From NCBI RefSeq assembly GCF_003957295.1, contig NZ_RQPJ01000021.1, positions 852,210 through 916,209 of the forward strand: a DNA stretch of 64,000 nt, given 5' to 3'. The position numbers were made by a program, and so were the translations under genes. The notes beneath the pieces are model-generated. The model saw nothing but the letters and a program-made list of their open reading frames with translations. It was not told where the DNA came from and did no database searches. The DNA is from Arenibacter aquaticus (GTDB taxonomy: Bacteria; Bacteroidota; Bacteroidia; Flavobacteriales; Flavobacteriaceae). Shown here in pieces: positions 15,553 to 62,610 of the stretch. Numbering within the stretch: position 1 is the stretch's first letter; the number at the start of each line of letters is the position of its first letter.

Positions 15553-15560
15553 TAAATTTA
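15553..15560 (-). promoter_or_regulatory. Candidate -7 box for usp
   Basis: TAAATTTA on the minus strand fits TAnnTTT(G) with one mismatch. Its first base lies exactly 35 nt from the far edge of the FNR-like dyad, mirroring the dnaJ side. It implies a leader of roughly 240 nt for usp. Confidence 0.45.
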
Positions 15561-15583
15561 ATTTAAAAATACGGTGCGATATA

Positions 15584-15595
15584 TGATTTTAATCA
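15584..15595. promoter_or_regulatory. FNR/CRP-like dyad between usp and dnaJ
   Basis: TGAT-TTTA-ATCA is a perfect TGAT/ATCA dyad like the core of FNR sites (TTGAT-N4-ATCAA). It lies just upstream of the dnaJ -33 element. Its centre is about 42-43 nt before the predicted dnaJ transcription start, the position used by class II CRP/FNR activators. Confidence 0.65.
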
Positions 15596-15596
15596 G

Positions 15597-15626
15597 TTGG
15601 ATGAAGGTTGGTTTTTAATAATTTTG
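15597..15626 (+). promoter_or_regulatory. dnaJ-cbpM promoter
   Basis: TTG (15597-15599), a 19-nt spacer and TAATTTTG (15619-15626) match the flavobacterial -33/-7 consensus. The predicted start is near 15632, about 105 nt before the GTG start codon. Confidence 0.65.
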
Positions 15627-15737
15627 ATTTGCTCAGAATAACTATTAATAAGGGGTTGGAGTGGAATAAGATTTGGATCTACAGCTGTATACCTCTACTT
15701 ATTAACTCCCAAATCATTTAAAATTAATACATCACAA

Positions 15738-16643
15738 GTGAAATTTATAGACTATTATAAAATATTGGGACTAAACAAGGATGCCAAGCCAAATGATATA
15801 AAAAAGGCCTATCGTAAATTGGCCCGTAAATACCATCCAGACGTTAACCCAAATGATAAGGAAGCCGAGAAAAGATTTCAGGAAATAAATGAAGCCAATG
15901 AGGTATTGAGCGATCCGGAAAAGCGCAAAAAATATGACAAATACGGTAAGGATTGGCAACATGCGGAAGAATTTGAAAAAGCCAGGTCCTCCCAACAGTC
16001 GGCATATGGCCAAAGCCGAAGGAAAGGTTATTCCCAAAATTATGGTGCCCATGATTTTTCAGATTTCTTTGAATCCATGTTTGGTGGGGCAACCGCCGAT
16101 TTTTCCAGACAACGAACCACGCGCTTTAGAGGTCAGGACTTCAACGCTGAACTAAAACTACATCTTAGGGATGTCTATACCACGCATAAACAAACCCTGA
16201 CAGTAAATGGAAAAAACATACGGATTACCGTCCCTGCAGGAATAGAAAATGGGCAAACCATAAAAATCAGTGGTCATGGAGGTCCCGGGCATCAGGGTGG
16301 TCCCAATGGTGACCTATATATTACATTTTCTATCATAAACGACACCCAGTTTAAACGGGATGGCAACAATCTTTATACTACTGTGAACCTAGAACTATAT
16401 AAAGCCCTGTTAGGTGGGGAAATTACCGTAAACACCTTTGACGGCCAAGTAAAACTTAAGGTAAAGCCGGAGACCCAGAACGGAAGCCAAGTAAAATTGA
16501 AAGGCAAAGGCTTTCCCGTATATAAAAAAAACAATGCTTTTGGAGATCTATATATTACCTATAATATAGTTACGCCAAAAAACCTAACCGAAAAAGAAAA
16601 AACCCTTATCAAAGAATTGGCAGCTCTTAGAAAAAACAAATAA
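15738..16643 (+). CDS. cbpA: DnaJ-family co-chaperone, CbpA type
   Basis: 301 residues starting at GTG ([12 protein letters not shown]). The J domain (1-70) has the HPD motif in [16 protein letters not shown]-rich linker (about 75-125, ending FFESMFGG) is followed directly by the two-barrel C-terminal substrate-binding region ([17 protein letters not shown] ... [26 protein letters not shown] ... [17 protein letters not shown]). The CxxCxGxG zinc-finger domain of true DnaJ is absent, which marks it as CbpA-like. It stimulates Hsp70 ATPase activity. The next gene, 58 nt downstream, encodes the CbpM modulator, the diagnostic partner of CbpA. Confidence 0.93.
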
Positions 16644-16701
16644 TAGCTACCAATTAAAATTGAATGCAAATTTTGAAAAACGAAAGCACAAAACCCATCT
16701 C

Positions 16702-16989
16702 ATGGAACAGGAATATGTATTGATAACCGACTTCTGTACGAGTCACGATATAGAGACCCATTTTATACTTCAACTATATGACAATGGGCTGGTAGATATT
16801 GTACTAAAGGAGAACTCATACTATCTCCCCCTTAAACAATTGCCCAAGGCGGAAAAAATAGTTCGACTTTATTCAGAATTGGACATCAACTTGGAGGGGA
16901 TTGAAGTAATAACCCAACTCTTAAAAAGGATAGAGAAAATGCAGGCTGAAATTATTTATTTAAAAAACAAGCTCGACCTGTACGAGTAA
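16702..16989 (+). CDS. cbpM: Chaperone modulator CbpM
   Basis: 95 residues from the ATG at 16702 (MEQEYVLITDFCTSH); a TTG 14 codons upstream is an unlikely start. It is a MerR-like winged-helix protein of the CbpM family, with an N-terminal helix-turn-helix-like region (DFCTSHDIETHFILQLYDNGLVDIV), a short strand pair, and a C-terminal helix (LEGIEVITQLLKRIEKMQAEIIYLKNKL) that binds the J domain. It inhibits or tunes CbpA. It lies directly behind the cbpA-type gene in one transcription unit. Confidence 0.9.
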   Translation: MEQEYVLITDFCTSHDIETHFILQLYDNGLVDIVLKENSYYLPLKQLPKAEKIVRLYSELDINLEGIEVITQLLKRIEKMQAEIIYLKNKLDLYE

Positions 16990-17183
16990 GATATGGATCA
17001 ACTAGGATTTTTAATTGGCCATAACTTCTACCTACAAGTATAGTCCACAAAATATCATCACGAAAATTAGGGGCATTTCCATTTTAAAACAACACGCTTT
17101 ACAAATATTTGGTCTAAGTGGTTCATACATGGGACACCCTATACCCCTAATTCACTTTGTTTTTTCTTAAAATGGTTCCAAAC

Positions 17184-17195
17184 TGATCTATATCA
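17184..17195. promoter_or_regulatory. FNR/CRP-like dyad upstream of the HMA-like gene
   Basis: TGAT-CTAT-ATCA. Its start is 35 nt before the -7-like box TAATTTTA (17219-17226), the same spacing as at dnaJ. There is no TTG at the -33 position, as expected for an activator-dependent promoter. Confidence 0.6.
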
Positions 17196-17218
17196 TTTTA
17201 CCTAGGAGCGTGGTTATA

Positions 17219-17226
17219 TAATTTTA
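17219..17226 (+). promoter_or_regulatory. Candidate -7 box of the HMA-like gene
   Basis: TAATTTTA differs from the dnaJ -7 box only at the last base. The predicted start near 17232 leaves a leader of about 20 nt to the ATG at 17253. Confidence 0.45.
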
Positions 17227-17252
17227 CCATGTTTAACTAACTCCTAATTTCC

Positions 17253-17546
17253 ATGATTACATCTTTTAAACTTAAGCAACTCAATACCGAAGAAGGCAAA
17301 AATATTATCACCAGAAATCTAAGTCGGATTTGTGATTTACGTATTTTGGATATTGATATTATAAACAAAACCATATCCCTGGACTACAATAATCCATTTA
17401 CCCTAGATTGTGCAAAAAAGGAACTACGCCGAATTGGCTATTCGCTCACATCCCATAAAGATCGTCCAAAACACAGGTTTCACAAAGCCAATAATGGCAT
17501 TACAAGTCTATTTCTTGATACTTCTCCGTATCAAAAAAGTGTATAA
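17253..17546 (+). CDS. Small HMA-fold-like protein without a CxxC motif
   Basis: 97 residues. The first 70 have a plausible ferredoxin-like beta-alpha-beta-beta-alpha-beta layout as in heavy-metal-associated domains (SFKLKQLNTEEGKNIITRNLSRI, LRILDIDIINKTISLDYN, CAKKELRRIGYSLT). The metal-binding CxxC is replaced by NTEEG, so copper binding is not expected. The tail is basic and low in structure. The 3' end overlaps galT convergently by 16 nt. The FNR-like dyad and -7 box immediately upstream, placed as at dnaJ, support it as a real gene of the stress cluster. The family assignment is tentative. Confidence 0.62.
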   Translation: MITSFKLKQLNTEEGKNIITRNLSRICDLRILDIDIINKTISLDYNNPFTLDCAKKELRRIGYSLTSHKDRPKHRFHKANNGITSLFLDTSPYQKSV

Positions 17547-18574
17547 TGTTTTTTAGGCAAAGCCTTTAGGGTCTCTGCAGCCTGTTCGGCTGTTATATCC
17601 CTTTGTGGGTTGGCAAACATTTCATACCCTACCATAAATTTCTTGACTGTTGCCGAACGCAGTAAGGGAGGATAAAACGACATATGAAAATGCCATTCCG
17701 GGTGTTCTTTACCATCTGTTGGCGCCTGATGAATTCCAGCTGAGTACGGAAACGAAGTTTTAAAAATATTATCGTATTTAATGGTCAAGTCTTTTAATAT
17801 TTCTGCGTACGCTTTCTTTTCAGGTTCTGTAAGCAAACCAATGTGAGCAATTTTTCTTTTGGGCAAGATCATTGTCTCATATGGCCACACCGCCCAGTAA
17901 GGGACAAGGGCTACGAAATACTCATTTTCCAGAACAATCCGTTTATCCAACTCCAATTCTTGCCCCAAATAGTCTTGCAGTATACTTTTGTTGTGCTTGT
18001 CCCAATAGTTCTTTAGCTGTCTTATTTTTTTTTCAACTTCTAATGGAATTTTGTGTTGTGCCCATATCTGACCATGGGGATGCGGATTGCTACACCCCAT
18101 TATGGCACCCTTATTTTCAAAAATTTGAACATGGTTGATACCTTCTTTACTTCCCAATTCTGCATATTCTTGCTGCCAAAGCGATATTACATCGGTAATG
18201 GCCTCTACAGTCATCAATGGTAGGGTCAGGGAGTGATCTGGGGAAAAACAAACAACCTTACAGATCCCAGATTCTGATTCAGCATATAGTAGGCCGTTCT
18301 CATAAGATTCGTTCCCTACATCCTGCAATAGTGCGGAAAAATCGTTAACAAAGGAAAATGGCTTTTTATACGCAGGATTAATGCCACCTCCCATTCTTTT
18401 ATTGGTAGGGCAAAGGTAGCATGAAGGGTCATAACTAGGCAGATTGGTCTCTGCGCTTTTCTCTGTCTTTCCCTGCCACGGCCTCTTATTTCTATGTGGT
18501 GAAACTAAAATCCATTCACCGGTAAGAATATTTAACCTTCTATGGGGGTTGCTGTTGAAATTACTAGGTTCCAT
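17531..18574 (-). CDS. galT: Galactose-1-phosphate uridylyltransferase
   Basis: A Leloir pathway enzyme that transfers UMP from UDP-glucose to galactose-1-phosphate. The start chosen is the ATG of MEPSNFNSNPHRRLN; an in-frame ATG 12 codons upstream is possible. It has an N-terminal HRRLNILTGEWILVSPHRNKRPWQG, zinc-site cysteines (CYLCP), the catalytic NPHPHGQIWAQH (HxHxQ), and the C-terminal YPYSAGIHQAPTDGKEHPEWHFHMSFYPPLLRS. It lies 110 nt downstream of galK on the same strand and is probably co-transcribed from the galK promoter. No galE or galM is in the window. Confidence 0.96.
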   Translation of the reverse strand: MEPSNFNSNPHRRLNILTGEWILVSPHRNKRPWQGKTEKSAETNLPSYDPSCYLCPTNKRMGGGINPAYKKPFSFVNDFSALLQDVGNESYENGLLYAESESGICKVVCFSPDHSLTLPLMTVEAITDVISLWQQEYAELGSKEGINHVQIFENKGAIMGCSNPHPHGQIWAQHKIPLEVEKKIRQLKNYWDKHNKSILQDYLGQELELDKRIVLENEYFVALVPYWAVWPYETMILPKRKIAHIGLLTEPEKKAYAEILKDLTIKYDNIFKTSFPYSAGIHQAPTDGKEHPEWHFHMSFYPPLLRSATVKKFMVGYEMFANPQRDITAEQAAETLKALPKKHYTLF

Positions 18575-18684
18575 TTCTTTTAAGTTTTGGTATTTATTGG
18601 GATTGACCAAATAGACTTTTATAACAACTTATCAACTAAGGGAAAACTCCATTGTATTTCTGTCCAATAGCCTAATCCCCCTCA

Positions 18685-19812
18685 TTAACGTATAGTTGTA
18701 CCGGCACTGGGCTTTACCTCAAATGCCTCCAAATCTATATTAAAAGCCTCTTTATATGCTGCCGAAGCCTCCTTTATAAATTGGTCCGCTTGGTCCTTAT
18801 GAACAATGTTGAGTGTACAGCCTCCAAAGCCACCGCCGGTTTGCCTTGCCCCCAATACCATCTCATATTTTTTGGTAAAGTCTACCAAGAAATCAGATTC
18901 GGGACAACTTACCTCATAATCTTTGCTAATGCCCTCATGAGCCTGGTATAACAATTCCCCGAAACGCTTCAGATCGTTTTCCTGTATGGCCTCCTTAGCT
19001 TCCAATACCCTTTGATTCTCTGTCACAATAAATGAACACCTACTGTATATGGTAGGATCCATATTCCCTTCATATTCTTGGATCATTGCAGTATCAACAT
19101 CACGTAAAGAATTAACCTCTGGATAGCGTTCTTTAATTATTTGTACCCCTGCTTCACATTCTCTCTTCCTTGTATTGTATTCACTACTTGCCAAATTATG
19201 GGATACCTTAGTATTCAGCATTATCATCTTATAGGGAGCAATTTGTATAGGTATTTGTTGATGCTCCAATGATTGGCAATCTAACAATATAACGTGTCCT
19301 TGCCTACTCATAACGGATGCAAATTGATCCATGATCCCGCACTGAGTACCTACATACGTGTGCTCTGCCCTTTGGGATAGTTTAACAATATCCATATTGG
19401 ACAGAGAAAGTCCAAAAAGGCGGTTGAGTCCAAAAGCCAGCCCACATTCCAAGGCAGCCGAAGAACTTAAACCAGAGCCCATAGGTAACTTACTCTCTAT
19501 GGTACAATCAAAGCCCCTTAATTTATCAGTCCTTTTTAAAATTTCGTTTAGAACCCCTAAAATATAATTCTCCCACTCTACTGCACTGGGAGCTATTTTA
19601 TCCAACTGAACTGCAAACCCCTTATTAAAGCCTAAACTATAAAAGTTGCATTGTTTATTGGAGTTGTTCTTTTTAAATTTAAAGGTGATTTTCTTCTCTA
19701 TGGCCGTTGGCAATACGTAGCCTAGGTTGTAATCGGTATGCTCCCCTATTAGATTAATTCTTCCTGGAGAATCTACAACCAAATCAGGGGTAAAGTTATC
19801 TGGAAAAGCCAT
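18685..19812 (-). CDS. galK: Galactokinase
   Basis: 375 residues of the GHMP kinase superfamily. All three family motifs are present: the galactokinase signature PGRINLIGEHTDYN near the N-terminus, the ATP-binding LPMGSGLSSSAALE, and the C-terminal GARQTGGGFGGCTLNIV. It phosphorylates galactose for GalT. It is the first gene of galK-galT, with a -7 box (TATATTTG, minus strand) about 24 nt before the start codon and a large dyad over the -33 region, so control by a repressor is likely. The locus borders the glycan-utilisation region and could take up its galactose products. Confidence 0.97.
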   Translation of the reverse strand: MAFPDNFTPDLVVDSPGRINLIGEHTDYNLGYVLPTAIEKKITFKFKKNNSNKQCNFYSLGFNKGFAVQLDKIAPSAVEWENYILGVLNEILKRTDKLRGFDCTIESKLPMGSGLSSSAALECGLAFGLNRLFGLSLSNMDIVKLSQRAEHTYVGTQCGIMDQFASVMSRQGHVILLDCQSLEHQQIPIQIAPYKMIMLNTKVSHNLASSEYNTRKRECEAGVQIIKERYPEVNSLRDVDTAMIQEYEGNMDPTIYSRCSFIVTENQRVLEAKEAIQENDLKRFGELLYQAHEGISKDYEVSCPESDFLVDFTKKYEMVLGARQTGGGFGGCTLNIVHKDQADQFIKEASAAYKEAFNIDLEAFEVKPSAGTTIR

Positions 19813-19835
19813 TTATATTTGCTGTTTTTACACGA

Positions 19836-19843
19836 CAAATATA
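19836..19843 (-). promoter_or_regulatory. galK -7 promoter element
   Basis: TATATTTG on the minus strand is a full TAnnTTTG match. The predicted start is near 19830, 18 nt before the galK ATG. Confidence 0.55.
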
Positions 19844-19853
19844 TAACATTAAT

Positions 19854-19880
19854 TTATAAGCGTAAAATTTACGTTTATAA
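19854..19880. promoter_or_regulatory. Candidate gal operator: 13-bp near-perfect dyad
   Basis: TTATAAGCGTAAA, a central A, then TTTACGTTTATAA. The arms are complementary at 12 of 13 positions (G versus A at the seventh). The dyad is centred 24 nt upstream of the -7 box, so it covers the -33 position, as expected for a repressor. The regulator is not encoded in the window. Confidence 0.65.
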
Positions 19881-19882
19881 AA

Positions 19883-19918
19883 CAAAAAAACACCTATCCC
19901 CAAATTGGAAATAGGTGT
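19883..19918 (-). terminator. Terminator of the FGE operon
   Basis: ACACCTAT and ATAGGTGT pair around a 13-nt loop, and on the minus strand the stem runs into TTTTTTTG. It separates the glycan locus minus arm from galK. Confidence 0.7.
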
Positions 19919-19936
19919 CATCAATATATTATACTT

Positions 19937-21073
19937 TTAATTGCCTTGCAGCATATCTACGGTAGCAACTGTTCTAAAACCTAGGTGTTCCAGAGCAGAA
20001 TCCAAGCTACTGGCCATTCTTGAAGAAATCCTATAGCTAGCACAATAAGAAGCGTTACATAAAAACGAACCGCCCCTCATTACCTTTTCCTTGGCATAGG
20101 GCATATTGGGGTTATAAGGAGAGCTGGCACCGGGCGGATTGACCGCTACGCTATTTTGGGCGTCCAATTCCTTGTAGTAATTTATGTTGTACCAATCACT
20201 GGTCCATTCCCAAACATTTCCGGCCATATCATAAAGTCCAAAATCATTTGGAGGATATGATTTTACTTCGGCTCTAGATTCAAAACCATCGGCCTTGCTA
20301 TTGATTACCGGAAATTCTCCTTCCCAGGTATTGCCCATTTGTGACAATACGGATTCATCATCTCCCCAGAAATAGATACTTTCGGCCTTATTTCCACGGG
20401 CCGCCCTTTCCCATTCCGCTTCAGTAGGCAATCTTCTTCCTGCCCATTCACAATACGCAAGGGCATCCTCATAAGCCACCTGTACCACGGGCTCGTTCTC
20501 CTTGCCCTCTATGGAACTATCAGGTCCGTTGGGATGTTTCCAATTGGCACCAATGGTCCAACTCCACCATTGTGAAAAATCGTAAAGGTTCGGCACGGTA
20601 CTTTTTGCTTTCTTAAAAGTTAACGAGCCAGGTTGTAAAATAGAATCGTGAGGTTTTGGAGTACCTTCAGGCACTTGTGATTTCATTTCTTCCCAATCAA
20701 TTGCGCGCTCGGCCACGGTAATGTAACCTGTTTCTTCCACAAACTTGGCAAATTCAGCATTGGTTACCTCTGTGGCATCCATAAAAAACCCGTCAATTTT
20801 CACCTTGTGGGCAGGCTTTTCATGGTCCATTGCCATTTTATCCTGGGGTACGGCTCCTTGGGTAAATTCACCTCCCGGAATCCAAACCATTCCATCCGGT
20901 GCTTCAATATTTTCAGGTTTTTCAACCAGAACCGCCACATCCTTATTTGGGGCTTTTCCAGCCTCCGATATAGGAGTACTGTCTTTACTATCACCAGTTG
21001 GTTTCTTCCCCTCCTTGCATTGGACCATAACTCCAATCATAAGAAAGACCCCTAAAATTTTAACGTATTGCAT
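19937..21073 (-). CDS. Formylglycine-generating enzyme (SUMF1 family) lipoprotein
   Basis: 378 residues with an SPII signal (GVFLMIGVMVQCKEG), so it is periplasmic and lipid-anchored. The SUMF1/FGE-sulfatase domain spans about 55-372 (MVWIPGGEF, DATEVTNAEFAKFVEETGY, WKHPNGPDSS, AYCEWAGRRLPTEAEWERAARG, AGNVWEWTSDWY, MRGGSFLCNASYCASYR). Both catalytic copper-binding cysteines of true FGEs are present as CNASYC (Cys339 and Cys344), which aligns with CHRSYC of human SUMF1. It should therefore convert the active-site Cys of sulfatases to formylglycine rather than being a cysteine-less GldJ/GldK-type relative. Two Cys-type sulfatases lie in the same locus. It is the last gene of the minus arm, 61 nt after the M28 peptidase. 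Confidence 0.88.
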   Translation of the reverse strand: MQYVKILGVFLMIGVMVQCKEGKKPTGDSKDSTPISEAGKAPNKDVAVLVEKPENIEAPDGMVWIPGGEFTQGAVPQDKMAMDHEKPAHKVKIDGFFMDATEVTNAEFAKFVEETGYITVAERAIDWEEMKSQVPEGTPKPHDSILQPGSLTFKKAKSTVPNLYDFSQWWSWTIGANWKHPNGPDSSIEGKENEPVVQVAYEDALAYCEWAGRRLPTEAEWERAARGNKAESIYFWGDDESVLSQMGNTWEGEFPVINSKADGFESRAEVKSYPPNDFGLYDMAGNVWEWTSDWYNINYYKELDAQNSVAVNPPGASSPYNPNMPYAKEKVMRGGSFLCNASYCASYRISSRMASSLDSALEHLGFRTVATVDMLQGN

Positions 21074-21096
21074 AGAATATAATTTATTTTAAAAAA

Positions 21097-21104
21097 CAAA
21101 GTTA
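21097..21104 (-). promoter_or_regulatory. Possible internal -7 box upstream of the FGE gene
   Basis: TAACTTTG on the minus strand fits TAnnTTTG about 24 nt before the FGE start codon. No clear -33 partner is present. It could give extra FGE transcription independent of the operon. Confidence 0.35.
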
Positions 21105-21134
21105 CATTTAAAATTGAATAATGTCACCCCATCT

Positions 21135-22091
21135 TTAATCTTGGTAAATGAACTCCATAGGATATGGTGTTCCAGCCACTTTCATGATAGCATTAAAAAT
21201 ATAATTGCATACTTTCTTTTGCCCCTCAAAATTAATCAGTTCAACCGTATCCTCGGGGGTATGATACTGAGGATGTCCCCCTGTATGAATACCCATTACC
21301 GATATCTTCTTTTTATAAAAGGAAACATGATCGGATCCACCCACTGAACCGGCGTGTACCACGGGTGACAACCCCAATGGGGGGGCTAATTCCTTCATCA
21401 GTTCCACTCCTCCCGGAAAAGTTCCGGCCCCGCCCATATACACTTGGTTGGCCTGGTTTAACCTGCCCACCATATCCATATTGATCATCAATTTTATCTT
21501 GGAAAGGGGTACAACAGGATGTTCCGTAAAATACTTACTACCCAAAAGTCCTTGTTCCTCTGCTCCAAAAGCTACCAGCAAAACACTCCTTTTTAATTCT
21601 GATTTATGGGCCACCAGCTTCTCCCCTATTTCCAGCAATGCCGAAGTACCGCTAGCATTATCATCGGCCCCGTGGTGAATTTGGATTTTATCTGATTTTG
21701 ATGAAGGTCCACCCCCCATACCCAAATGATCATAATGGGCCCCAAGTACCACAAATTCATCCTTTAACAGGGGATCACTTCCTTCAATTACGCCTATGAC
21801 ATTCCATGTTTTAACGGCTTTTTTGGGCTCGTCCCCTTTTTTTACCCTTAACTTTGCCTTGAAAGTCTGTTTATAGGATTTTGCATATGGAAGTATACCA
21901 GCATTTTTAAAATCCTTTCTAATATAGGACACTACTCTTTTATTTATTTTTCCACCTGGATACCTTCCTGAATTTTGATCCGAAGTAAGAAATGTAATAT
22001 GATCTTTTAGTTCGGAAGTGGTGATTTCTTCTTGTGCAGTGGATACATTAATACAAATACTCGCTATTGCAATAGCCTTATAAATCCTCAT
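21135..22091 (-). CDS. M28 family zinc aminopeptidase, exported
   Basis: 318 residues with an SPI signal peptide (MRIYKAIAIASICINVSTAQ). The full M28 zinc-site set is visible: LGAHYDHLGMG (His), GADDNASGTSALLEI (bridging Asp), VAFGAEEQGLLGS (catalytic Glu and zinc Glu), INMDMVGRL (Asp) and GGHPQYHTPEDTVELIN (His). Such enzymes release N-terminal amino acids in the periplasm. It lies 14 nt after the GH20 gene in the same operon, which suggests that the target glycan is attached to peptide. Substrate preference cannot be deduced. Confidence 0.92.
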   Translation of the reverse strand: MRIYKAIAIASICINVSTAQEEITTSELKDHITFLTSDQNSGRYPGGKINKRVVSYIRKDFKNAGILPYAKSYKQTFKAKLRVKKGDEPKKAVKTWNVIGVIEGSDPLLKDEFVVLGAHYDHLGMGGGPSSKSDKIQIHHGADDNASGTSALLEIGEKLVAHKSELKRSVLLVAFGAEEQGLLGSKYFTEHPVVPLSKIKLMINMDMVGRLNQANQVYMGGAGTFPGGVELMKELAPPLGLSPVVHAGSVGGSDHVSFYKKKISVMGIHTGGHPQYHTPEDTVELINFEGQKKVCNYIFNAIMKVAGTPYPMEFIYQD

Positions 22092-22105
22092 ACTCTCTTT
22101 CCCTT

Positions 22106-23752: not shown

Positions 23753-23775
23753 AAAACTATTCTTGTTATAAACAT

Positions 23776-23801
23776 TTGGGGCAGAAAATATCCTGCCCCA
23801 A
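23776..23801 (-). other. Intra-operon hairpin between the sulfatase and GH20 genes
   Basis: TTGGGGCAG and CTGCCCCAA form a perfect 9-bp G+C-rich stem with an 8-nt loop. No T-run follows on either strand. It is more likely an mRNA processing or stability element than a terminator. Confidence 0.5.
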
Positions 23802-23831
23802 GTACCATGAATTTAGTGTATTATGTACTGC

Positions 23832-49878: not shown

Positions 49879-49910
49879 AGCCAAAAAACCCTATAAAACC
49901 TGCCGAAACA

Positions 49911-53936: not shown

Positions 53937-54631
53937 TTCGATCTATAATACTATTACTTCTAATTTTCCCAATTATATCTTGTAGTAAAGGTGGGGATAC
54001 ACCAAAGGAGGAAGAGTTAAGTTTACCGGCTGCAGCATCCCTAATTTTTCCTTCTAATAATTCGGAATGTATTGAAGGAGTGGTAAAAAATGATACCCAA
54101 AGTTCGGTTACCTTTCAATGGGAAGATGCCACCAACGCGGACAGTTATGAACTTAAATTAAAAAATCTATCAACTGGAGTTACAACAGGTTATAATGTCA
54201 TCCAAAATGAAGTAACCATTGAATTGGATAGAGGCAGTGCCTATTCTTGGTATGTTATTTCTAAAAGTAAAAATTCCAAAGAAATTTCAGAGAGTGCTGT
54301 CTGGAGATTCTACAATGCCAATGCAACTATTTCTTCCTATGCCCCATTCCCAGCCCTTCTAGTTTCCCCGACAATAAACCAGGAGATAGTTTTTTCTTCC
54401 GAAGGAATAGTATTGGAATGGACAGGGAGCGATGTGGATAAGGATATAGTAGCCTATGATATCTATTTTGGATTTAGCAACCCACCTGAACTATATCAAG
54501 AAAACCTTAACACCCCTAAAGTAGAAAATGTTGTTGTGAAGCCAGCAACCAATTACTATTGGAAGATAATAACTAAGGACTCTAAAGGAAATATTTCCTA
54601 TTCCAATCTTTTTCAATTTAAAGTAAAATAA
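53933..54631 (+). CDS. Lipoprotein with two FN3-like domains
   Basis: 232 residues with a lipobox ([15 protein letters not shown]). Two fibronectin type III-like sandwiches (about 32-125 and 140-232) carry the recurring [19 protein letters not shown] / [21 protein letters not shown] and [12 protein letters not shown] / [14 protein letters not shown] patterns typical of Bacteroidetes surface lipoproteins. The start codon overlaps the stop of the giant T9SS protein (ATGA), so the two are translationally coupled. It may anchor or assist that protein at the outer membrane; this is inference. Confidence 0.85.
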
Positions 54632-55119
54632 GTACCAAAAAGGTAATTTGGAAAACTTTAAAGGATATAGGAAGTAGACAATACAAAAAATGGTTTGCTA
54701 GGGAACTGAAGTTCCTTAGCAAACCATTTTTTTATCTACTTTTAACTAAATTGTTATCGTAAAAATGCCATTAAAAATTACCTTATGACCATCCATTTGA
54801 ATATCGAAAAATTCATCATATGCAATAATCTAAGTATTATATTGGCCAAATTTTAAATGAGGAATTATGGATACTGGGAAAACCAACTCTAGAGTTGGCC
54901 TCATAAAAATTAATTGATCGTTTACAGTTTAACAACAGATAATGGCTTCTCAAAATTGTTGGCAAATCAAAAATCAGTGAAGCACTTTAATATGAAAGTA
55001 AGCTTGAAAACAGTAATAGGAAATATTGCCAATAGAGTAAGCCTTTTTAATAATGCCATCCTTACAAGACAATCCTTAATTCCAATAAAATATTAACTCA
55101 TACCGTCCAAACTTCAACC
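54632..55119. other. 488-bp intergenic region before the second sulfatase
   Basis: Apart from the strong terminator at 54685-54733, I see no gene, full promoter consensus or repeat. A 60-codon open frame at 54914-55096 has no recognisable family features. Confidence 0.5.
54685..54733 (+). terminator. Strong terminator after the FN3-like lipoprotein gene
   Basis: A long stem (TGGTTTGCTAGGGAAC with GTTCCTTAGCAAACCA, one mismatch) has a 4-nt TGAA loop, an A-run before it and TTTTTTT after it, so it could act on both strands. Confidence 0.85.
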
Positions 55120-56514
55120 ATGAAATTCACTTTCCATATTCTAATCTATCTAATCCCCTTAGTATTATTTTCCCAAAAAGACCTTGACGAAGTGCGTGAA
55201 TCAAATGATAGGCCCAATTTTGTTTTTATTGTTGCCGATGACCTTGGCTATGGAGATTTGGGTTTTACAGGAAGTACACAAATAAAGACTCCTAATATTG
55301 ATAAATTGGCCCAAACGGGGGTATTTTGTTCTGAAGGCTATGTTTCTTCTGCCGTTTGCAGTCCTTCAAGAGCTGGTTTTTTAACGGGCATCAATCAAGT
55401 AGAATTTGGTCATGACAACAATCTGGCCAACAACCAACCTGGTTTCGATCCCCAGTTTTTAGGATTGCCCATAACACAAAAGACCATAGCCGATCATCTA
55501 AAACCTTTGGGCTACACAAGTGGCATTATAGGGAAATGGCATTTAGGCCATGAGAACCAATTTCATCCCTTAAATAGAGGATTCGACGAATTTTGGGGCT
55601 ATCTCGGAGGCGGACACGATTACTTCAATTCCAAGCCAAATGATAAGCGATACTTGGCTCCGATAGAATGCAATTATAAGACGGTACAACCAATTACTTA
55701 TATCACGGACGATAAGGGGGACGAATGTGTTGATTTTATAAAACGACATAAAAACGAACCTTTCTTTCTTTTTGCCTCCTTCAATGCTCCCCATACCCCA
55801 ATGCAGGCGACCAAGGCCGATTTGTCATTATACGGTCATATAAAGGATAAAAAAAGAAGGACATACGCGGCAATGGTACATAGGCTTGATGTTAATGTGG
55901 GCAAAATTATAGATGCTATAAATGAACATGGTTTGGACAAAAATACCCTTGTCGTTTTTATAAGTGACAATGGAGGTCCTATTCACAACGGTTCCATCAA
56001 CTCCCCTTACAACGGGAAAAAAGGCAGCTTGTTGGAAGGTGGAATACATGTCCCTTTTATAATAAATTGGCCTAAAACCCTACCCTCAGGAAAAACCTAC
56101 TCCCATATGGTTTCTTCACTGGACTTTGCCCCGACCTTTTTGGCCTTGGCAGGTGGAAGTATAAAAGAATACCCTTTTAGCGGTACCAATCTAATACCCC
56201 ATCTAGTAGAAGATAACAGCCAAGCGCCCCATGCCAATCTTAAGTGGCGCTTTACCATTAGTGCGGCCATAAGGGAAGGGGACTATAAATTGATCAGGCT
56301 TCCAGATAGATTTCCCTTATTGTTTCATCTTCCTTCGGACATTGCTGAACAGCATAACATAGCTCTGGACAACTTGGATATCACCAAAGACCTACTGGAA
56401 AAATTAGGAAATTGGGATGTATCTCTCCCCCACCCGCTATTCTTGGAAGGTGCCCAATGGAAAAAACGACAGCTTTCCCAATACGACGATAGTTATCCAT
56501 TAATACAACCATAA
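55120..56514 (+). CDS. Sulfatase, family S1, Cys-type, exported
   Basis: 464 residues with an SPI signal (ILIYLIPLVLFSQ). The sulfatase core has PNFVFIVADDLGYGDLG (metal Asp40-Asp41) and the formylglycine motif CSPSR (Cys80) followed by AGFLTG. Then come IIGKWHLGHE, FASFNAPHTPM and VVFISDNGGP. It is shorter than the first sulfatase and lacks its GHAHIRGN segment, so the two probably remove sulfate from different positions or residues. The exact S1 subfamily was not determined. The PhoD-like gene starts 15 nt downstream, so they form a two-gene operon. Confidence 0.93.
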   Translation: MKFTFHILIYLIPLVLFSQKDLDEVRESNDRPNFVFIVADDLGYGDLGFTGSTQIKTPNIDKLAQTGVFCSEGYVSSAVCSPSRAGFLTGINQVEFGHDNNLANNQPGFDPQFLGLPITQKTIADHLKPLGYTSGIIGKWHLGHENQFHPLNRGFDEFWGYLGGGHDYFNSKPNDKRYLAPIECNYKTVQPITYITDDKGDECVDFIKRHKNEPFFLFASFNAPHTPMQATKADLSLYGHIKDKKRRTYAAMVHRLDVNVGKIIDAINEHGLDKNTLVVFISDNGGPIHNGSINSPYNGKKGSLLEGGIHVPFIINWPKTLPSGKTYSHMVSSLDFAPTFLALAGGSIKEYPFSGTNLIPHLVEDNSQAPHANLKWRFTISAAIREGDYKLIRLPDRFPLLFHLPSDIAEQHNIALDNLDITKDLLEKLGNWDVSLPHPLFLEGAQWKKRQLSQYDDSYPLIQP

Positions 56515-56529
56515 CATAAATCACGCTAA

Positions 56530-59148
56530 ATGAACAGAAGAAAATATATAAAAACCATTGCCCTAGGTTCCCTATTACCCACTTTTTCCTCCTACGCATT
56601 CCCTTTTGGAGTAAATAATGCTTCAAAACAACTGGAAAAAACCAATTTTAAAAGCAATTGGCACCATTGGCCCGATATGAAGTGGGTAGGTCCTGAATAC
56701 TGGGGGAACCGACTCCAAGATTGGCAACTAAAAAACGGAATGGCCGTTTGTAAGGTAACAGCAAAAAATAGAACCTTACAATTATTGACGGTCCAAAAAA
56801 CTGAACAACTCTCAGAATTAGAGGTTGGCGTGGAAATAGCCTTGCAAACCACAAGTATTAACCCCACCGATAAAGTGTGTCTAGGTATGCGATTGGGGTG
56901 TAAAGGCCCTTTTGACGACTATAGATCTGCAGCTGTTTTCGGCAAAGGATTGGATATAGGCCTTACCGCCAATGGCTCCCTTCAAATAGGAGAACGCATT
57001 TATGAAACGGCCCTAAAGGAAATTCCAGGTTCTTTTAAGCTAGTGGTCCATCTGCTGCCCAAAAACGATGCTTATGTTTTGAGTGTAACCATAAAAGATC
57101 CGGAAACACACCAAGTACTGCACCATCAAAAGGATATTGATACAAGCAACGCAACGGTAATGGGCAATTTTGCCCTTCTGGCAGATGCCACAATAGACAA
57201 ATCCATGAGCAATCAATCTTTTGCTGCATTTTCAAATTGGGCTATTATATCTGAAAAACTTATACAGCACAAAGAACAACTCTTTGGCCCCATTTGTTTT
57301 GCCCAGTATACCTTGCATGACAAAAAGTTAAAACTAACCGCCCAACTAGCGCCTATTGAAGAAATTAGCGGCCATTCCGTGCATTTGCAATGTAAGGAGG
57401 AGGGCAGTTGGAAAACAAAAAGTACAACTGAGCTGAAACATATAGGAAGGGCGGTAAATTTTGAATTGGAAAATTGGAATGCCCAATCGGATGTTCCGTA
57501 CCGTATCTTGGTTGAGATCCCCTTAAAAAACGAAACCCACCACTACACCTATGAGGGTACCATAGCCAAAGAACCTATGGACAAGGAAATGGTTTCCGCA
57601 GCCGTCTTCAGTTGCAATTTTCACTATGGTTTCCCCGATAATGATATCCATAGAAATGTAACCAAACTTAATCCGGACATTATGCTCTTTTTAGGAGATC
57701 AGTTCTATGAGGCTACGGGTGGATTTGGGGCAGCGCGAAACGCAAGCTTGGACGATCTATGTCTGGATTATTTGCGCAAGTGGATGATGTTCGGCTGGTC
57801 TTACCGCGAACTCTTTAGACATAAACCCTGCGCCATAATCCCGGATGACCATGATGTATATCACGGAAATGTTTGGGGCGAAAGTGGCAAAAAAGCCGAT
57901 ACCTCTACCGGTTATGGCATGCTGGCACAGGACTCCGGTGGTTATAAAATGCCCCCAGAATGGGTTAATATGGTGCAATTTACACAAACAAGTCACTTAC
58001 CAGATCCCTATGACCCTACCCCTGTAAAACAAGATATAGGGGTGTACTACACCCATTGGAATTACGCCGGAATAAGCTTTGCCATATTGGAGGATAGGAA
58101 GTTTAAATCAGCTCCAAAACATGTTCTGCCGCCAGAAGCCCAAGTAAGGAATGGCTGGATACAGAACAAAGATTTTGATATAAAAAAACACAGGGACCAT
58201 GATGCCGTACTTTTAGGAAAGAGACAGCACGATTTTATAGACGATTGGACCCAGGATTGGAACAATGGGGCCGCCCTAAAAGTAGTACTCTCACAGACCA
58301 ATTTTGCCACCGTGGCTACCCTACCCAAAACAGCTATGAATGACGATGTGGTCCCCTCCCTACCAATTCCTAAAAAAGGGGAATATGTTGTGGGCGATGT
58401 GCCCACTGTGGACATGGACTCCAATGGCTGGCCTGCAAATGAACGGGATAGGGCCGTTAAGGCATTGCGAAAATGTTTTGCCTTTCATATAGCAGGTGAT
58501 CAGCACTTGGGTAGTTTTATCCAATATGGTGTTGAGGAACACGGGGATAGTGGCTATGCCTTTGCAGGACCCGCATTGAACAATATATGGCCCAGAAGAT
58601 TCTGGCCAGAAGTAGACGCTAGCCAACACACCTATGAAAACCCTGCATATGTAGGGGATCATGAAGACGGATTTGGAAATAAAATATCCGTGCATGCCGT
58701 AGGCAATCCTTTTGATACCGCACTGGAACCTGCCATAATACACAATAGGGCAACAGGATATGGTCTGGTAACTTTTAATAAAAGTGAAAGAACTATCACA
58801 ACAGCTTGCTGGCCCCGCTATTCAGATCCAACAAAAGGTCTAAAGGAACAATTTCCAGGTTGGCCAATTACCGTTAAACAGATGGACAATTACGGACGTA
58901 AAGCGGTTGCTTGGCTACCTACCATAAAGGTTGAAAATGGATTAAAACCAGTTATTTCTGTTTTTGACAAACAACAACAGTTGGTTTATACTGTGCGCAT
59001 GCCAACCGATACTTTTGCTCCCAAGGTGTTTAGCAAAGGGCAATATACCATTGTAATCCAGGATTTGGAAAACAACAGAAAGAAAACCATAAAGCATATT
59101 AAGGCTAAAACCAAGAACACAAAGGTCTTGGATGTAGATTTCGAATAA
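56530..59148 (+). CDS. PhoD-like metallophosphatase, Tat-exported
   Basis: 872 residues. The N-terminus is a Tat signal (NRRKYIKTIALGSLLP). About 330 residues of beta-rich sequence precede the PhoD-type metallophosphatase domain. That domain is seen from VFSCNFHYGFPDNDIHRNV, LNPDIMLFLGDQFYEA (metal Asp), AIIPDDHDVYHGNVWGE and FHIAGDQHLGSFIQYG (metal His). It lies 15 nt after a sulfatase. PhoD family enzymes are Ca/Fe phosphodiesterases or phosphatases. In PULs the relatives are larger and their substrates unknown; they may act on phosphorylated or sulfated glycan. Confidence 0.9.
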   Translation: MNRRKYIKTIALGSLLPTFSSYAFPFGVNNASKQLEKTNFKSNWHHWPDMKWVGPEYWGNRLQDWQLKNGMAVCKVTAKNRTLQLLTVQKTEQLSELEVGVEIALQTTSINPTDKVCLGMRLGCKGPFDDYRSAAVFGKGLDIGLTANGSLQIGERIYETALKEIPGSFKLVVHLLPKNDAYVLSVTIKDPETHQVLHHQKDIDTSNATVMGNFALLADATIDKSMSNQSFAAFSNWAIISEKLIQHKEQLFGPICFAQYTLHDKKLKLTAQLAPIEEISGHSVHLQCKEEGSWKTKSTTELKHIGRAVNFELENWNAQSDVPYRILVEIPLKNETHHYTYEGTIAKEPMDKEMVSAAVFSCNFHYGFPDNDIHRNVTKLNPDIMLFLGDQFYEATGGFGAARNASLDDLCLDYLRKWMMFGWSYRELFRHKPCAIIPDDHDVYHGNVWGESGKKADTSTGYGMLAQDSGGYKMPPEWVNMVQFTQTSHLPDPYDPTPVKQDIGVYYTHWNYAGISFAILEDRKFKSAPKHVLPPEAQVRNGWIQNKDFDIKKHRDHDAVLLGKRQHDFIDDWTQDWNNGAALKVVLSQTNFATVATLPKTAMNDDVVPSLPIPKKGEYVVGDVPTVDMDSNGWPANERDRAVKALRKCFAFHIAGDQHLGSFIQYGVEEHGDSGYAFAGPALNNIWPRRFWPEVDASQHTYENPAYVGDHEDGFGNKISVHAVGNPFDTALEPAIIHNRATGYGLVTFNKSERTITTACWPRYSDPTKGLKEQFPGWPITVKQMDNYGRKAVAWLPTIKVENGLKPVISVFDKQQQLVYTVRMPTDTFAPKVFSKGQYTIVIQDLENNRKKTIKHIKAKTKNTKVLDVDFE

Positions 59149-59182
59149 GATAGACCTTAAAATCAACCCTTATTTTTGAACA

Positions 59183-59226
59183 ATAAAAAATCCCAAGCTT
59201 TCCTTTTCCGCGGAAAGTTTGGGATT
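59183..59226 (-). terminator. Terminator of the minus-strand Gfo/Idh gene
   Basis: AATCCCAAGCTTTCC and GGAAAGTTTGGGATT form a 15-bp stem with one mismatch. On the minus strand it is followed by TTTTTTATTG. Confidence 0.75.
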
Positions 59227-59251
59227 CCTATTTATAAATAGAATCTCTATT

Positions 59252-60568
59252 TTAGATAACTACTGTTTTTCCAGGTGTTGGTATGTTATAGGTACCATCG
59301 GCATTTGGCTGCACCGGTGCTGGGGAATCCCAAGTTAAATCGTCAGGGGCTAGGTCTATATTAGACTTCATGGCCTCCTCCCATTTTATTACCTTTCCAG
59401 AATAAGTGGCCATTCTTCCTATAATGGCGGTCATAGTACTTTTTGCACCATTCTCTGCATCACTTATTACACCTTTATTCCTAATGGATTCAAACAGTTT
59501 AATGTGTTCTACCTGATAAGGGTTTGGATCATCTTTCCCACGATGGGTGAAAATTTCACTACCGTCCAAACCTTTAATAAAGGTATTGTCCCCATAGGTG
59601 TCAATAGATCCTTTTGTACCTTGGAAGGTCTCTGCCACCTTGTTCATGGTTTCTGGCATATGCCTACACTGACTGGCTATTACGGCACCGCTGGGATAGG
59701 TATATTCTACAAAGTGGTGGTCAAAGATCTCTCCGTGATCTTTTCCTGTCCTTACCAGTCTACCTCCCATACCTTGCGCTGAAATAGGGTACTCGCCTAT
59801 AAACCAGTTGGCCACATCTATATTGTGGATATGCTGTTCTAGAATGTGATCACCGCATAACCAGTTAAAATAGTACCAATTTCTCATTTGGTATTCCAAT
59901 TCGCTTTGGCCTGGTTGCCGCTCGCGCACCCATACCCCACCACTGTTCCAGTAGACCTGACCAGAAACAATTTTTCCAATCTTATTGTCTTTTATATGCT
60001 GAAGTCCAGCCAAATAATTATCCTGATAATGTCGTTGAAGTCCAACAACCACATTCAATTTTTTTTCTTTTGCAACCTTAGCTGCCGCCAGAACTTTTCG
60101 CACGCCTGGCACATCGGTTGCCACCGGCTTTTCCATAAAAACGTGCTTCCCTGCATTCACCGCGTACTCAAAATGCTGTGGTCTAAATCCAGGAGGTGTG
60201 GCCAAAATAACCACATCTGCCATATCTATTGCCTTTAAGGCTCCGTCAAAACCAACAAACTGATGTTTTTTGCGAACATTTATTTTTTTTGTGCCTTCAA
60301 ATTTCTTCTGCAAGTTCATTAAACTACCCTGCAACCTATCTTCAAATGCATCAGCCATTGCCACCAATTCCACATTGGGATCGGCCTGCAAGGCCTGACT
60401 CGCCGCTCCGGTACCGCGGCCACCGCAACCGATCAACGATATTTTCAATTTCTTCTCATTGGCTACATTTACCATTGCGTTCATTTGCATGGTAGGTAAA
60501 ATCATTGCTCCAGTTACCAAAGCACTGCTCTTGACAAAATCTCTTCTACTATTCTTGATGTTGGTCAT
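59252..60568 (-). CDS. Gfo/Idh/MocA family oxidoreductase, Tat-exported
   Basis: 438 residues. Tat signal SRRDFVKSSALVTGAMILP, then the Rossmann fold (KISLIGCGGRGTGAASQAL; VELVAMADAFEDR), the catalytic EKP in HVFMEKPVATD, and the C-terminal domain with GDHILEQHIHNIDVANWFIGEYP. It lacks the GH109 hallmarks (YQHDLRG, YPTHG), so it is a different subfamily, probably an NAD(P)-dependent sugar oxidoreductase acting in the periplasm. Similar exported members flank PULs in many Bacteroidetes. The substrate is unknown. It is monocistronic and divergent from the second Gfo/Idh gene. Confidence 0.88.
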   Translation of the reverse strand: MTNIKNSRRDFVKSSALVTGAMILPTMQMNAMVNVANEKKLKISLIGCGGRGTGAASQALQADPNVELVAMADAFEDRLQGSLMNLQKKFEGTKKINVRKKHQFVGFDGALKAIDMADVVILATPPGFRPQHFEYAVNAGKHVFMEKPVATDVPGVRKVLAAAKVAKEKKLNVVVGLQRHYQDNYLAGLQHIKDNKIGKIVSGQVYWNSGGVWVRERQPGQSELEYQMRNWYYFNWLCGDHILEQHIHNIDVANWFIGEYPISAQGMGGRLVRTGKDHGEIFDHHFVEYTYPSGAVIASQCRHMPETMNKVAETFQGTKGSIDTYGDNTFIKGLDGSEIFTHRGKDDPNPYQVEHIKLFESIRNKGVISDAENGAKSTMTAIIGRMATYSGKVIKWEEAMKSNIDLAPDDLTWDSPAPVQPNADGTYNIPTPGKTVVI

Positions 60569-61097
60569 TGTTATACTAATTATTTATGTTTCCTATTCAA
60601 AATTTACTCATCGGATAAGTACTAGCCCCTGTATTAGTTTTATGGCAGTTACAGGAGGTCAATATAGAGATTTATTTGGAAACGTACAATGTACATTTTT
60701 AGAGATTATCAGTTAATATGTTAAATAACCTATATTATCCCAAAAGTACAGCACAAAAAATCACCTAACCTTAAAAATAAAAATCCACAAAGAACTACCC
60801 CCACTAGTTTTTATAATTCCATTTTTGGATTTCTCCTGCCCGGTTTAAGTTTAAATGGAAGAATGCCGTTGCATCATCTTATTTTACAGTGAATCCACTG
60901 ATTGAAACAATTGGTCATATCAGATTTTTTACTCGGTTCAACAAGGAATAAACAATTTGTATCAAAACAAGAATTAAGACGGTACCATAAAATATACCCC
61001 TCTTTCCCAAGATCGTTTGAGAAATCTACCATACTAATTGGGTTTATTTGTAAATTATCACCACAAAATTTAACCAGCAACCGTCAACCCAATAACC
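60569..61097. other. 529-bp divergent region between two Gfo/Idh genes
   Basis: No gene is supported; a 71-codon open frame at 60902-61117 overlaps the next start and has no family features. Imperfect promoter elements for the plus-strand gene may be TTTG (61016-61019) and TTTATTTG (61043-61050). A short dyad, GTAC-AAT-GTAC, lies near 60685. Confidence 0.45.
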
Positions 61098-62474
61098 ATG
61101 GACACGAAAACATTTAACATCAACAGAAGACATTTTATTAAGGGAGCCGCAGCTTCCCTAGCACTATCCTCATTTGGATCATATGGCATGGAACTCCTAT
61201 ATCGTACCAAGCCACTACGCGTTGGACTAATAGGTGCGGGTTGGTACGGGAAAAGCGACCTTTTTAGACTGATGCAGGTAACCCAAGTAAATGTAGTATC
61301 CATTTGTGACGTGGACAAACGTATGCTTGCCGAGGCAGCCAACCTAATACAACTTAGGCAAACTTCGGGAAAGGCACCTAGGACCTATACCGATTACCGA
61401 AAAATGCTTGCCGAGAAAGATTTGGATATTGTACTTATAGGCAGCCCGGATCATTGGCATGCCCTACAGGCCATAGAAGCCTTAAAGGCAGGTGCCCATG
61501 TTTATGTTCAGAAACCTATAAGTGTTGATGTTCTGGAGGGAGAGGCCATGGTAGCCGCTGCCAGAAAATATAATAAGGTAGTACAGGTAGGAACCCAACG
61601 AAAGAGTACTCCCCACCTTATTGATGCCAAAAAAAACATTGTGGATGCCGGACTATTAGGGAAAATATCCCATGTAGAAATGTGTTGTTACTACCATATG
61701 AGGGCCAACGGCAACCCTCCCATTACAGCTGTTCCAGAATTTTTGGATTATGAAATGTGGACCGGTCCCGCTCCACTTCGGCCATATGACGGCCTGCCAC
61801 ATAGAAGATGGTGGCGTGCCTTTATGGAGTACGGTAATGGTATAATGGGCGATATGTGCGTTCATATGCTGGATACGGTTAGATGGATGCTAGATCTGGA
61901 TTGGCCCAAAAAAATTAGTTCTACAGGAGGAATATTTGTGCAAAAGGATAGTAAATCCAACATTGCCGACACCCAAACGGCAATCTTTGAATATGAGGAA
62001 CTCAACTGCGTATGGCAACACAGAAGCTGGGGAACCCCTGTAGACCCAGATTACCCATGGTCCTTTAAACTTTACGGGGAAAAAGGTACCTTGTCCGGAA
62101 GCACTATGAGATACGACTTTGTTCCGCATGGGGGTGGGGAAAAGATCCATATGGACGTTATTTATGAAAAAGAAAAATATCCGGAGGACCTCACCGAAAA
62201 AGATATAGAATTAAATGCAGCCCCAGCTACCAGATTGCATATGTTGGATTTCCTTGCTGCTATTGACAAAGGCACTTTACCTATTGCCGATATACGTGAA
62301 GGCCATATTTCCACGGCAAGTTGCATTTTGGCCAATATGGCCATGGTCACCGGAAGGCCTCTAATCTATGACCCTAAAAAAATTGTGGTGGTAAATGATG
62401 CCGAGGCAACTGCACTTTTGAAACGGGATTATCGCGCTCCATGGAGGCATCCCCATCCAAATGACTTTAGATAA
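61098..62474 (+). CDS. Gfo/Idh/MocA family oxidoreductase, Tat-exported, QKP variant
   Basis: 458 residues. Tat signal NRRHFIKGAAASLALSSFG, Rossmann start RVGLIGAGWYGKSDLFRLM and SICDVDKRML. The usual EKP catalytic motif is QKP (HVYVQKPISVD), a substitution seen in a particular exported Bacteroidetes/Planctomycetes subfamily. Later come WTGPAPLRPYDGLPHRRWWRAFMEYGNGIMGDMCVHMLDTVRWML and a C-terminal SCILANMAMVTGRPL. It is probably a periplasmic sugar oxidoreductase or a redox-assisted lyase; no substrate can be named. It is convergent with nothing and 209 nt before the PPOX gene. Confidence 0.88.
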   Translation: MDTKTFNINRRHFIKGAAASLALSSFGSYGMELLYRTKPLRVGLIGAGWYGKSDLFRLMQVTQVNVVSICDVDKRMLAEAANLIQLRQTSGKAPRTYTDYRKMLAEKDLDIVLIGSPDHWHALQAIEALKAGAHVYVQKPISVDVLEGEAMVAAARKYNKVVQVGTQRKSTPHLIDAKKNIVDAGLLGKISHVEMCCYYHMRANGNPPITAVPEFLDYEMWTGPAPLRPYDGLPHRRWWRAFMEYGNGIMGDMCVHMLDTVRWMLDLDWPKKISSTGGIFVQKDSKSNIADTQTAIFEYEELNCVWQHRSWGTPVDPDYPWSFKLYGEKGTLSGSTMRYDFVPHGGGEKIHMDVIYEKEKYPEDLTEKDIELNAAPATRLHMLDFLAAIDKGTLPIADIREGHISTASCILANMAMVTGRPLIYDPKKIVVVNDAEATALLKRDYRAPWRHPHPNDFR

Positions 62475-62567
62475 AAAACTATCTTCTTTTGAAGGAGCAC
62501 TACAGTGGGGACCACTAACTACTATTGGGGATTATATCAGTTTAAAAGCGGTGTGCACCTATGCTAC

Positions 62568-62579
62568 TGACCGTTGTCA
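62568..62579. promoter_or_regulatory. FNR/CRP-like dyad upstream of the PPOX gene
   Basis: TGAC-CGTT-GTCA, a perfect dyad of the CRP/FNR class. Its start is 35 nt before the -7 box TAGATTTG (62603-62610), the same geometry as at dnaJ and the HMA-like gene. Confidence 0.6.
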
Positions 62580-62602
62580 TATTTTAACATTTTAAAAGGC
62601 AA

Positions 62603-62610
62603 TAGATTTG
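62603..62610 (+). promoter_or_regulatory. -7 box of the PPOX gene
   Basis: TAGATTTG is a full TAnnTTTG match. No TTG is found at -33, consistent with dependence on the activator site upstream. The leader is about 68 nt. Confidence 0.55.

Follow-up and report, generated by a model that had tools for sequence, protein, structure and literature searches.

The stretch of the Arenibacter aquaticus genome analysed here (the window, 64 kb long; C19:852210-916209 in a genome of 5.23 Mb on 24 contigs) carries stress-related genes behind promoters in which an inverted repeat, the operator dyad, stands at a fixed distance upstream of a -7 box. The explanation that we favour, and consider probable, is class II activation of these promoters by Crp/Fnr-fold proteins of two families, an FNR-like protein and fusions of a response-regulator receiver to a Crp-type module (REC-CRP). 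From their sequence and spacing, the sites can be taken with high confidence as class II Crp-type operators. It also seems likely, from their distribution among genomes, that both families read them, and we lean towards low oxygen as the main signal. Contigs, genomes and loci are cited below by our own C, G and L numbers.

A preliminary description of the window had reported three dyads, at 15584, 17184 and 62568, each beginning 35 nt before a -7 box at 15619, 17219 and 62603 respectively, and all three promoters are found where it placed them. The first operator, TGATTTTAATCA (15584-15595), is followed by the -7 box of the dnaJ promoter, TAATTTTG (15619-15626, plus strand), with a predicted start near 15631. 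The description had missed that this dyad is also read in the opposite direction. A fourth match (15553-15595, minus strand) combines it with the -7 box TAAATTTA (15553-15560, minus strand; predicted start near 15548) and faces a Usp gene. The dyad is common to the two divergent promoters, lies at a predicted -47 to -36 on both strands, and is one of two dyads in the genome that have a -7 box at this spacing on both flanks. The second operator, TGATCTATATCA (17184-17195), precedes the box TAATTTTA (17219-17226, plus strand; predicted start near 17231), and the third, TGACCGTTGTCA (62568-62579), precedes the box TAGATTTG (62603-62610, plus strand; predicted start near 62615).

These four matches to the full pattern, TGAY-N4-RTCA followed after 23 nt by TANNTTTR, compare with 0.02 expected in the window, and none of 100 shuffled sequences reaches four. 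The dyad by itself shows no enrichment: the window has 6, with 4.09 expected, and 27 of 100 shuffles reach 6. The information therefore sits in the spacing. If two mismatches are allowed, the window has 9 matches to the full pattern where 6.34 would be expected, so that weak sites are not callable in this way.

The genome scan that had been proposed as a check of this geometry was run over gaps of 8 to 38 nt (31 gaps), and the claim survives it. Of the 71 dyad/-7 pairs in the genome, 40 have gap 23 and 5 have gap 24, which leaves 26 for the remaining 29 gaps together. Taking the other gaps as background, a Poisson estimate puts the excess at gap 23 at ∼2e-48, and the reversed pattern has 16 matches summed over all gaps. 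When only the exact gap-23 pattern is sought, 41 sites are found and none in the reversed control; the free-gap scan had paired the 41st (C5:452491-452533) with a nearer box, at gap 15. Our own simple gene caller puts none of the other 40 inside a gene, and one of them overlaps a gene end by 3 bases. Two clusters hold 35 of the 40, 13 at C4:180-386 kb and 22 at C19:771-958 kb. The sites thus recur, as the preliminary description had supposed, and with 41 exact sites in the genome the regulon comprises far more than the three units that it named.

The position of the promoters relative to transcription was deduced from Flavobacterium psychrophilum, for which the excerpted text of PMC9723704 places the TAnnTTTG box at -12 to -5; our predicted starts follow from this placement. 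The dyad therefore occupies -47 to -36, with its centre at -41.5. A centre near -41.5 and a constant distance to the -7 box mark an operator as that of a class II promoter, and the proposal that this geometry stands in front of a coherent set of stress and low-oxygen genes is borne out. Of 42 matches from this genome (two counted twice, in overlapping loci), 5 have TTTG near -33, as do 14 of 260 others. The -33 element is mostly missing, and the promoters therefore look weak without an activator; a TAnnTTTR box without it is the form to be expected of a class II promoter that depends on an activator.

The operator consensus is MTGAY-N4-RTCAT. Its right outer position is T or G and its left one mostly A or C, whereas the E. 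coli FNR box, TTGAT-N4-ATCAA, has T and A as its outer bases. These two occur together in 0 of the 40 sites of this genome and in 0 of 248, 0 of 20 and 0 of 27 sites of three further sets. By its sequence, then, this is not an FNR box of the E. coli type.

The preliminary description had suggested that a Crp/Fnr gene be sought, and candidate regulators are found inside the regulon itself. The nearest named relatives of one regulator from this genome come from Arenibacter, with 85 to 90% identity among the first eight listed. The cNMP-binding domain (PF00027) occurs at eight places in the genome. One is the FNR-like gene (C4:180.4-181.1 kb), which has a gap-23 site in front of it and belongs to the C4 cluster, where genes for a cbb3 oxidase and a HemN-like protein stand behind other sites. 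Two more are the REC-CRP fusions, of receiver-cNMP-HTH_Crp architecture, each adjoining a PAS histidine kinase (kinases A and B). The receiver domain (PF00072) scores above the cut-off in both fusions, both contain the sequence CDIMMPE with the phospho-acceptor Asp, and the kinase A/REC-CRP pair is preceded by a gap-23 site. By eye, the recognition helices of the FNR-like protein and the two REC-CRP proteins share a Glu and an Arg four residues apart.

Comparison across the family suggests that both kinds of regulator are connected with the sites. Among 100 Flavobacteriaceae genomes, one from each of 100 genera, 93 carry the exact pattern, with 1467 sites against 51 controls. The 14 genomes with neither regulator hold 9 sites (0 to 2 each; 4 controls), compared with 398 in the 37 genomes that have only the FNR-like protein (median 10, range 1 to 31; 24 controls), 421 in the 24 that have only REC-CRP (median 16.5, range 6 to 37; 11 controls) and 639 in the 25 that have both (median 25, range 9 to 53; 12 controls). 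Each class differs from the genomes with neither at P values of 5e-8 to 2e-7 (Mann-Whitney, ignoring kinship). Nine of the genomes with neither are smaller than 2.7 Mb; those of 3.0-3.5 Mb (G009, G036, G064, G073 and G074) have 1, 0, 0, 2 and 0 sites. Membership of the REC-CRP class was set by full-length matches at E 3e-74 or better, the next being 2.6e-35, with mostly the best 20 candidates per genome scored. That of the FNR-like class was set at E 8e-43 or better, a narrow gap from the next family at 3.2e-38.

The preference for gap 23 is found with either regulator. Among gaps 18-28, it accounts for 127 of 176 pairs in five REC-CRP-only genomes (17 reversed controls over all gaps) and for 105 of 150 in five FNR-like-only genomes (31 controls). 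Since site counts track regulator content, and sites are almost absent where there is neither, we conclude that two regulator families, not one activator, are probably involved. A single FNR/CRP-family activator had originally been proposed; the Crp/Fnr type of the operator stands, and the one activator probably gives way to two families, each of which goes with the sites across the 100 genomes. In the phylum as a whole, 149 of 296 genomes, Flavobacteriaceae included, have at least one match, with counts that are mostly low outside the family. The highest count outside the Flavobacteriaceae belongs to G368, from another class of the phylum, with 28 exact sites and 0 in the control; its FNR-like protein is 41% identical to that of A. 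aquaticus.

The surroundings of the fusion genes were compared in 80 REC-CRP loci from named genomes (704 kb), many of them from close relatives and so not independent. Gap-23 sites are present in 78 of the 80 loci, 260 in all, with 0 in the reversed control. The other gaps from 18 to 28 give 0 to 13 each, including 2 at gap 22, 13 at gap 24 and 9 at gap 25. Gap 12 aside, gap 24 is the next commonest spacing, both here and in the A. aquaticus genome, where one such site has the gene for the large chain of ribonucleotide reductase behind it.

These distributions bear directly on a simpler model in which a single FNR-like activator runs the regulon and the REC-CRP fusions regulate something else and merely travel along. 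The location of the FNR-like gene, behind a gap-23 site of its own and in the same cluster as the cbb3 and HemN-like genes, is in keeping with it, as are the 398 sites of the FNR-like-only genomes. The 24 genomes that possess REC-CRP and no FNR-like orthologue nevertheless hold 421 sites. This finding, the 9 sites in the 14 genomes with neither regulator, and the gap-23 sites of 78 of the 80 REC-CRP loci make a sole FNR-like activator unlikely.

A kinase-sized open frame lies directly upstream of REC-CRP in 76 of the 80 loci. A dyad is found within 250 bp of the kinase B operon in 63 of 76 loci, with a gap-23 site facing away from it in 51. In A. aquaticus one dyad (C19:942798-942809) both lies before kinase B and serves the divergent gene. 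The dyad stands close to the ATG in 15 of the 76 kinase upstream regions, with a -7-like box at gap 12, and most of the 17 gap-12 pairs in the 80 loci come from these. Such a box would set the start at or near the ATG, giving a leaderless transcript, or else the dyad acts as a block. By our inference, the divergent gene is activated from the same operator that may repress the kinase B/REC-CRP operon.

The resemblance of this gap-12 arrangement to a blocking position is what speaks for regarding the dyads in general as repressor operators at constitutive promoters. The gap-23 dyads, on the other hand, lie upstream of the -7 box with their centre at -41.5, and TTTG at -33 accompanies only the 5 of 42 matches already mentioned, so that we regard general repression as quite improbable. 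Nor do we give much credence to a further proposal, in which the sites are really read by another Crp-type paralogue, with which the presence of the two families only correlates. The paralogue at C19:574 kb has the same Glu...Arg spacing in its recognition helix, but proteins of its type (E 1e-20) occur in only 4 of the 24 REC-CRP-only genomes (G033, G066, G093 and G097), with other stand-alone relatives in 2 more (G028 and G056), yet all 24 have at least 6 sites. G009, which has a stand-alone relative (31%) and neither regulator, has 1 site. The probability that the pattern is due to chance or to a general feature of AT-rich promoters is negligible, in spite of the unenriched dyad in the window, given the preference for gap 23, the reversed controls and the near-absence of sites from genomes that have neither regulator.

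Several observations weigh against activation by the two families, or against individual parts of it. Besides the Glu/Arg pair of the C19:574 kb paralogue, the comparison of genome classes has no phylogeny correction, and some genomes with the FNR-like protein have few sites: G018 has 1, and G023, G040 and G085 have 2 each. The FNR-like proteins of G018 and G040 are weak members of the class, with 39 and 42% identity. Outside the family, G171 has 0 sites despite its REC-CRP fusion (43%). Pfam counts of the genes that follow gap-23 sites in REC-CRP-only genomes (27 genes) and FNR-like-only genomes (20 genes), made after 3 of 30 and 3 of 23 rows had been dropped as repeats of the same gene, are too small and mixed to separate the targets, and the site logos of the two regulator classes did not separate either. 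A gap-23 site facing the kinase B operon is found in 0 of 76 loci. The other points of this kind concern the sensors.

Among solved structures, the FNR-like protein has its best match, at 5e-27, in the uncharacterised Crp/Fnr chain 2gau, and FNR chains match at 2.5e-23 to 4.5e-22. The ligands of the FNR cluster are Cys20, Cys23, Cys29 and Cys122. In 30 FNR-like sequences, a sample from the 62 genomes called FNR-like, Cys4, Cys7, Cys53 and Cys106 are present in every case. Cys4, Cys7 and Cys106 align with FNR Cys20, Cys23 and Cys122, three of the four ligand positions, and the position of Cys29 is occupied by Asn in 29 sequences and by a gap in one. The protein has a rearranged cysteine set, in which the fourth cysteine seems to have moved. 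We infer that it works like FNR, yet it departs from FNR in two defining respects, the Cys29 ligand and the operator. A dyad is found near the FNR-like gene in 27 of 29 loci (L068-L076 and L242-L261), though only 6 of them show the gap-23 geometry, which hints that the gene controls itself in some other way.

The first PAS domain of kinase B is closest to FixL among solved structures (4e-14). The position of the haem-binding His of FixL is a His in all 77 kinases compared, that of A. aquaticus included; a His at this position is common also in PAS domains that bind no haem. Two further residues of the FixL haem pocket are Arg206 and Arg220. The former position is Arg in 4 of the 77 kinases and the latter in 71, so that the binding of haem and O2 by the kinase B PAS domain is uncertain. 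Kinase A has a LOV domain that matches solved LOV-type chains at 4e-35 and contains the sequence NCRFLQ, which we take to be the LOV cysteine motif. The motif is present in the kinase A counterpart of two of three relatives (G010 and G034, not G050), so that light input is possible, not general, and we are somewhat doubtful that the LOV kinase adds it. Oxygen or redox sensing is plausible in view of the sensor domains and of the gene content.

In the mechanism that we propose, a dimer bound to MTGAY-N4-RTCAT and centred at -41.5 would contact RNA polymerase and replace the missing -33 contact. It would do so at flavobacterial housekeeping promoters that keep the TAnnTTTR box, mostly without TTTG at -33. 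The FNR-like protein would carry an oxygen-labile Fe-S cluster on its four conserved cysteines, and REC-CRP would act once phosphorylated by the neighbouring kinase. The output would consist of Usp, PPOX, PfkB and DnaJ-CbpM proteins, a cbb3 oxidase subunit, and HemN-like, ribosome-hibernation-type and PEP synthase-type proteins.

The gene content of the regulon was assessed by a Pfam scan of 60 proteins in and around the site-bearing units, a number of which belong to no Pfam family. Usp proteins make up 13 of the 60. The set further contains two PPOX proteins, PfkB, glucokinase, DnaJ, the CbpM-type protein, a fused COX1-FixO subunit of cbb3 oxidase and a HemN-like radical SAM protein, for which HemN_C is slightly below the cut-off. 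FtsH, PEP synthase-type and S30AE ribosome-hibernation-type proteins are also present, together with two c-type cytochromes, patatin, YtxH, an ABC1 kinase-like protein, DUF302 and MlaE. This set looks like a low-oxygen or dormancy programme. According to the excerpted text of PMC9723704, oxygen limitation raises the expression of cbb3 oxidase and haem synthesis genes in F. psychrophilum, a response that agrees with the gene content here.

In the window, the Usp gene behind the divergent promoter (14459-15307, minus strand; 282 aa, PF00582, E 1.8e-25) is the first gene of its unit. It may share its transcript with the gene for a 140-aa protein without a Pfam match (13963-14385, minus strand), which has homologues in stretches from G010, G050 and G093, and perhaps also with that for a pyridine nucleotide-disulphide oxidoreductase (12711-13694, minus strand; PF07992, E 3.1e-46). 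In the other direction lie the genes for a DnaJ-family co-chaperone (15738-16643, plus strand; Pfam DnaJ and DnaJ_C) and a CbpM-like MerR_2 protein (16660-16989, plus strand; PF13591, E 4.5e-25). The second operator precedes an open reading frame for a 97-aa protein (17253-17546, plus strand), and the third a gene for a PPOX-type flavoprotein (Pyridox_ox_2; 62684-63136, plus strand; PF12900, E 2.4e-16), after which come PfkB and glucokinase genes, identified by Pfam, beyond the end of the window. The names originally given to the DnaJ, CbpM-type MerR_2, PPOX, Usp and PfkB genes agree with Pfam; the 97-aa protein, which had been called HMA-like, has no Pfam match.

Between these stress units, at 17531-60568, lies the region previously described as a glycan locus, which contains a GalT-type gene by Pfam. 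It had been thought to split the regulon. Among four relatives for which the surroundings were partly retrieved, DnaJ-CbpM is near other regulon genes in one, G093, where DUF302 is ∼8 kb and a REC-CRP gene ∼12 kb away from it; this bears weakly on the idea of a split.

A candidate regulated small RNA was noted elsewhere on the contig, at L045:12834-13252 (C19:926.8-927.3 kb), behind the gap-23 site C19:926788, from which the next gene call on the same strand is more than 1 kb away. The 419-nt stretch folds strongly (z -5.69, with 0 of 100 shuffles as stable) and ends in a terminator-like hairpin, shuffled sequences having on average 0.9 such hairpins. A search of 25 other genomes, including 15 congeners, gave no match to it, and no Rfam match exceeds a gathering score.

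Comparison with known systems reveals both likenesses and differences. With FNR and class II promoters of the E. coli type the present system shares the Crp fold, the TGA...TCA core centred at -41.5, a CxxC motif and a Cys at the position of FNR Cys122. It differs in the absence of the outer T...A of the FNR box, in the Asn at the Cys29 position, in Cys53 and in the -7 box, which is of the Bacteroidota type. Rhizobia have the FixL-FixJ-FixK cascade, which resembles the present system in its FixL-like PAS kinase, a Crp-type output and a cbb3 oxidase gene among the targets. Here, in contrast, receiver and Crp-type output are joined in one protein, in which the FixJ and FixK steps would be merged. 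The mycobacterial DosR regulon has several Usp proteins, PfkB, PPOX-type flavoproteins and two-component control in common with that described here, a likeness in content; DosR is a NarL-type regulator with another operator.

In Myxococcus xanthus, the NmpRSTU system comprises a protoglobin-domain haem kinase, an NtrC-type regulator and sigma54, acting at 7 promoters, as given in the excerpted text of PMC11841059. As in our model, that text has a kinase-driven regulon, proposed for low oxygen, with Usp, cbb3 oxidase and HemN. The difference, as far as the excerpt goes, is that Crp-type proteins would here act at housekeeping promoters, with about 40 sites. In the titles and opening lines of the abstracts that our searches of open-licence papers listed, we found no description of the operator code, of receiver-CRP fusions in Flavobacteriaceae or of a flavobacterial FNR regulon. 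What looks new is the shared code, the apparent FNR-type role of the receiver-CRP fusions and the apparent shift of a cysteine.

In its widest form, which we put forward tentatively and think rather unlikely to hold in full, the model would have one rigid code, used in the Flavobacteriaceae, integrating an FNR-like Fe-S protein with its rearranged cysteines, responding directly to oxygen or redox state, a FixL-like kinase with its REC-CRP partner, as a FixLJ-FixK cascade compressed into two proteins, and, in some members, a LOV blue-light kinase with a second REC-CRP, so that oxygen and light converge on a DosR-like dormancy regulon. Since site number follows regulator content, species that have only one regulator could serve to separate the two roles. 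For specialists, the interest would lie in a response regulator that uses a Crp-type output for FNR-type work and in an FNR-like protein whose fourth cysteine seems to have moved. If the model is true, the Flavobacteriaceae would have a concrete low-oxygen regulon with an exact promoter geometry, candidate regulators and a pattern of presence and absence across 100 genomes.

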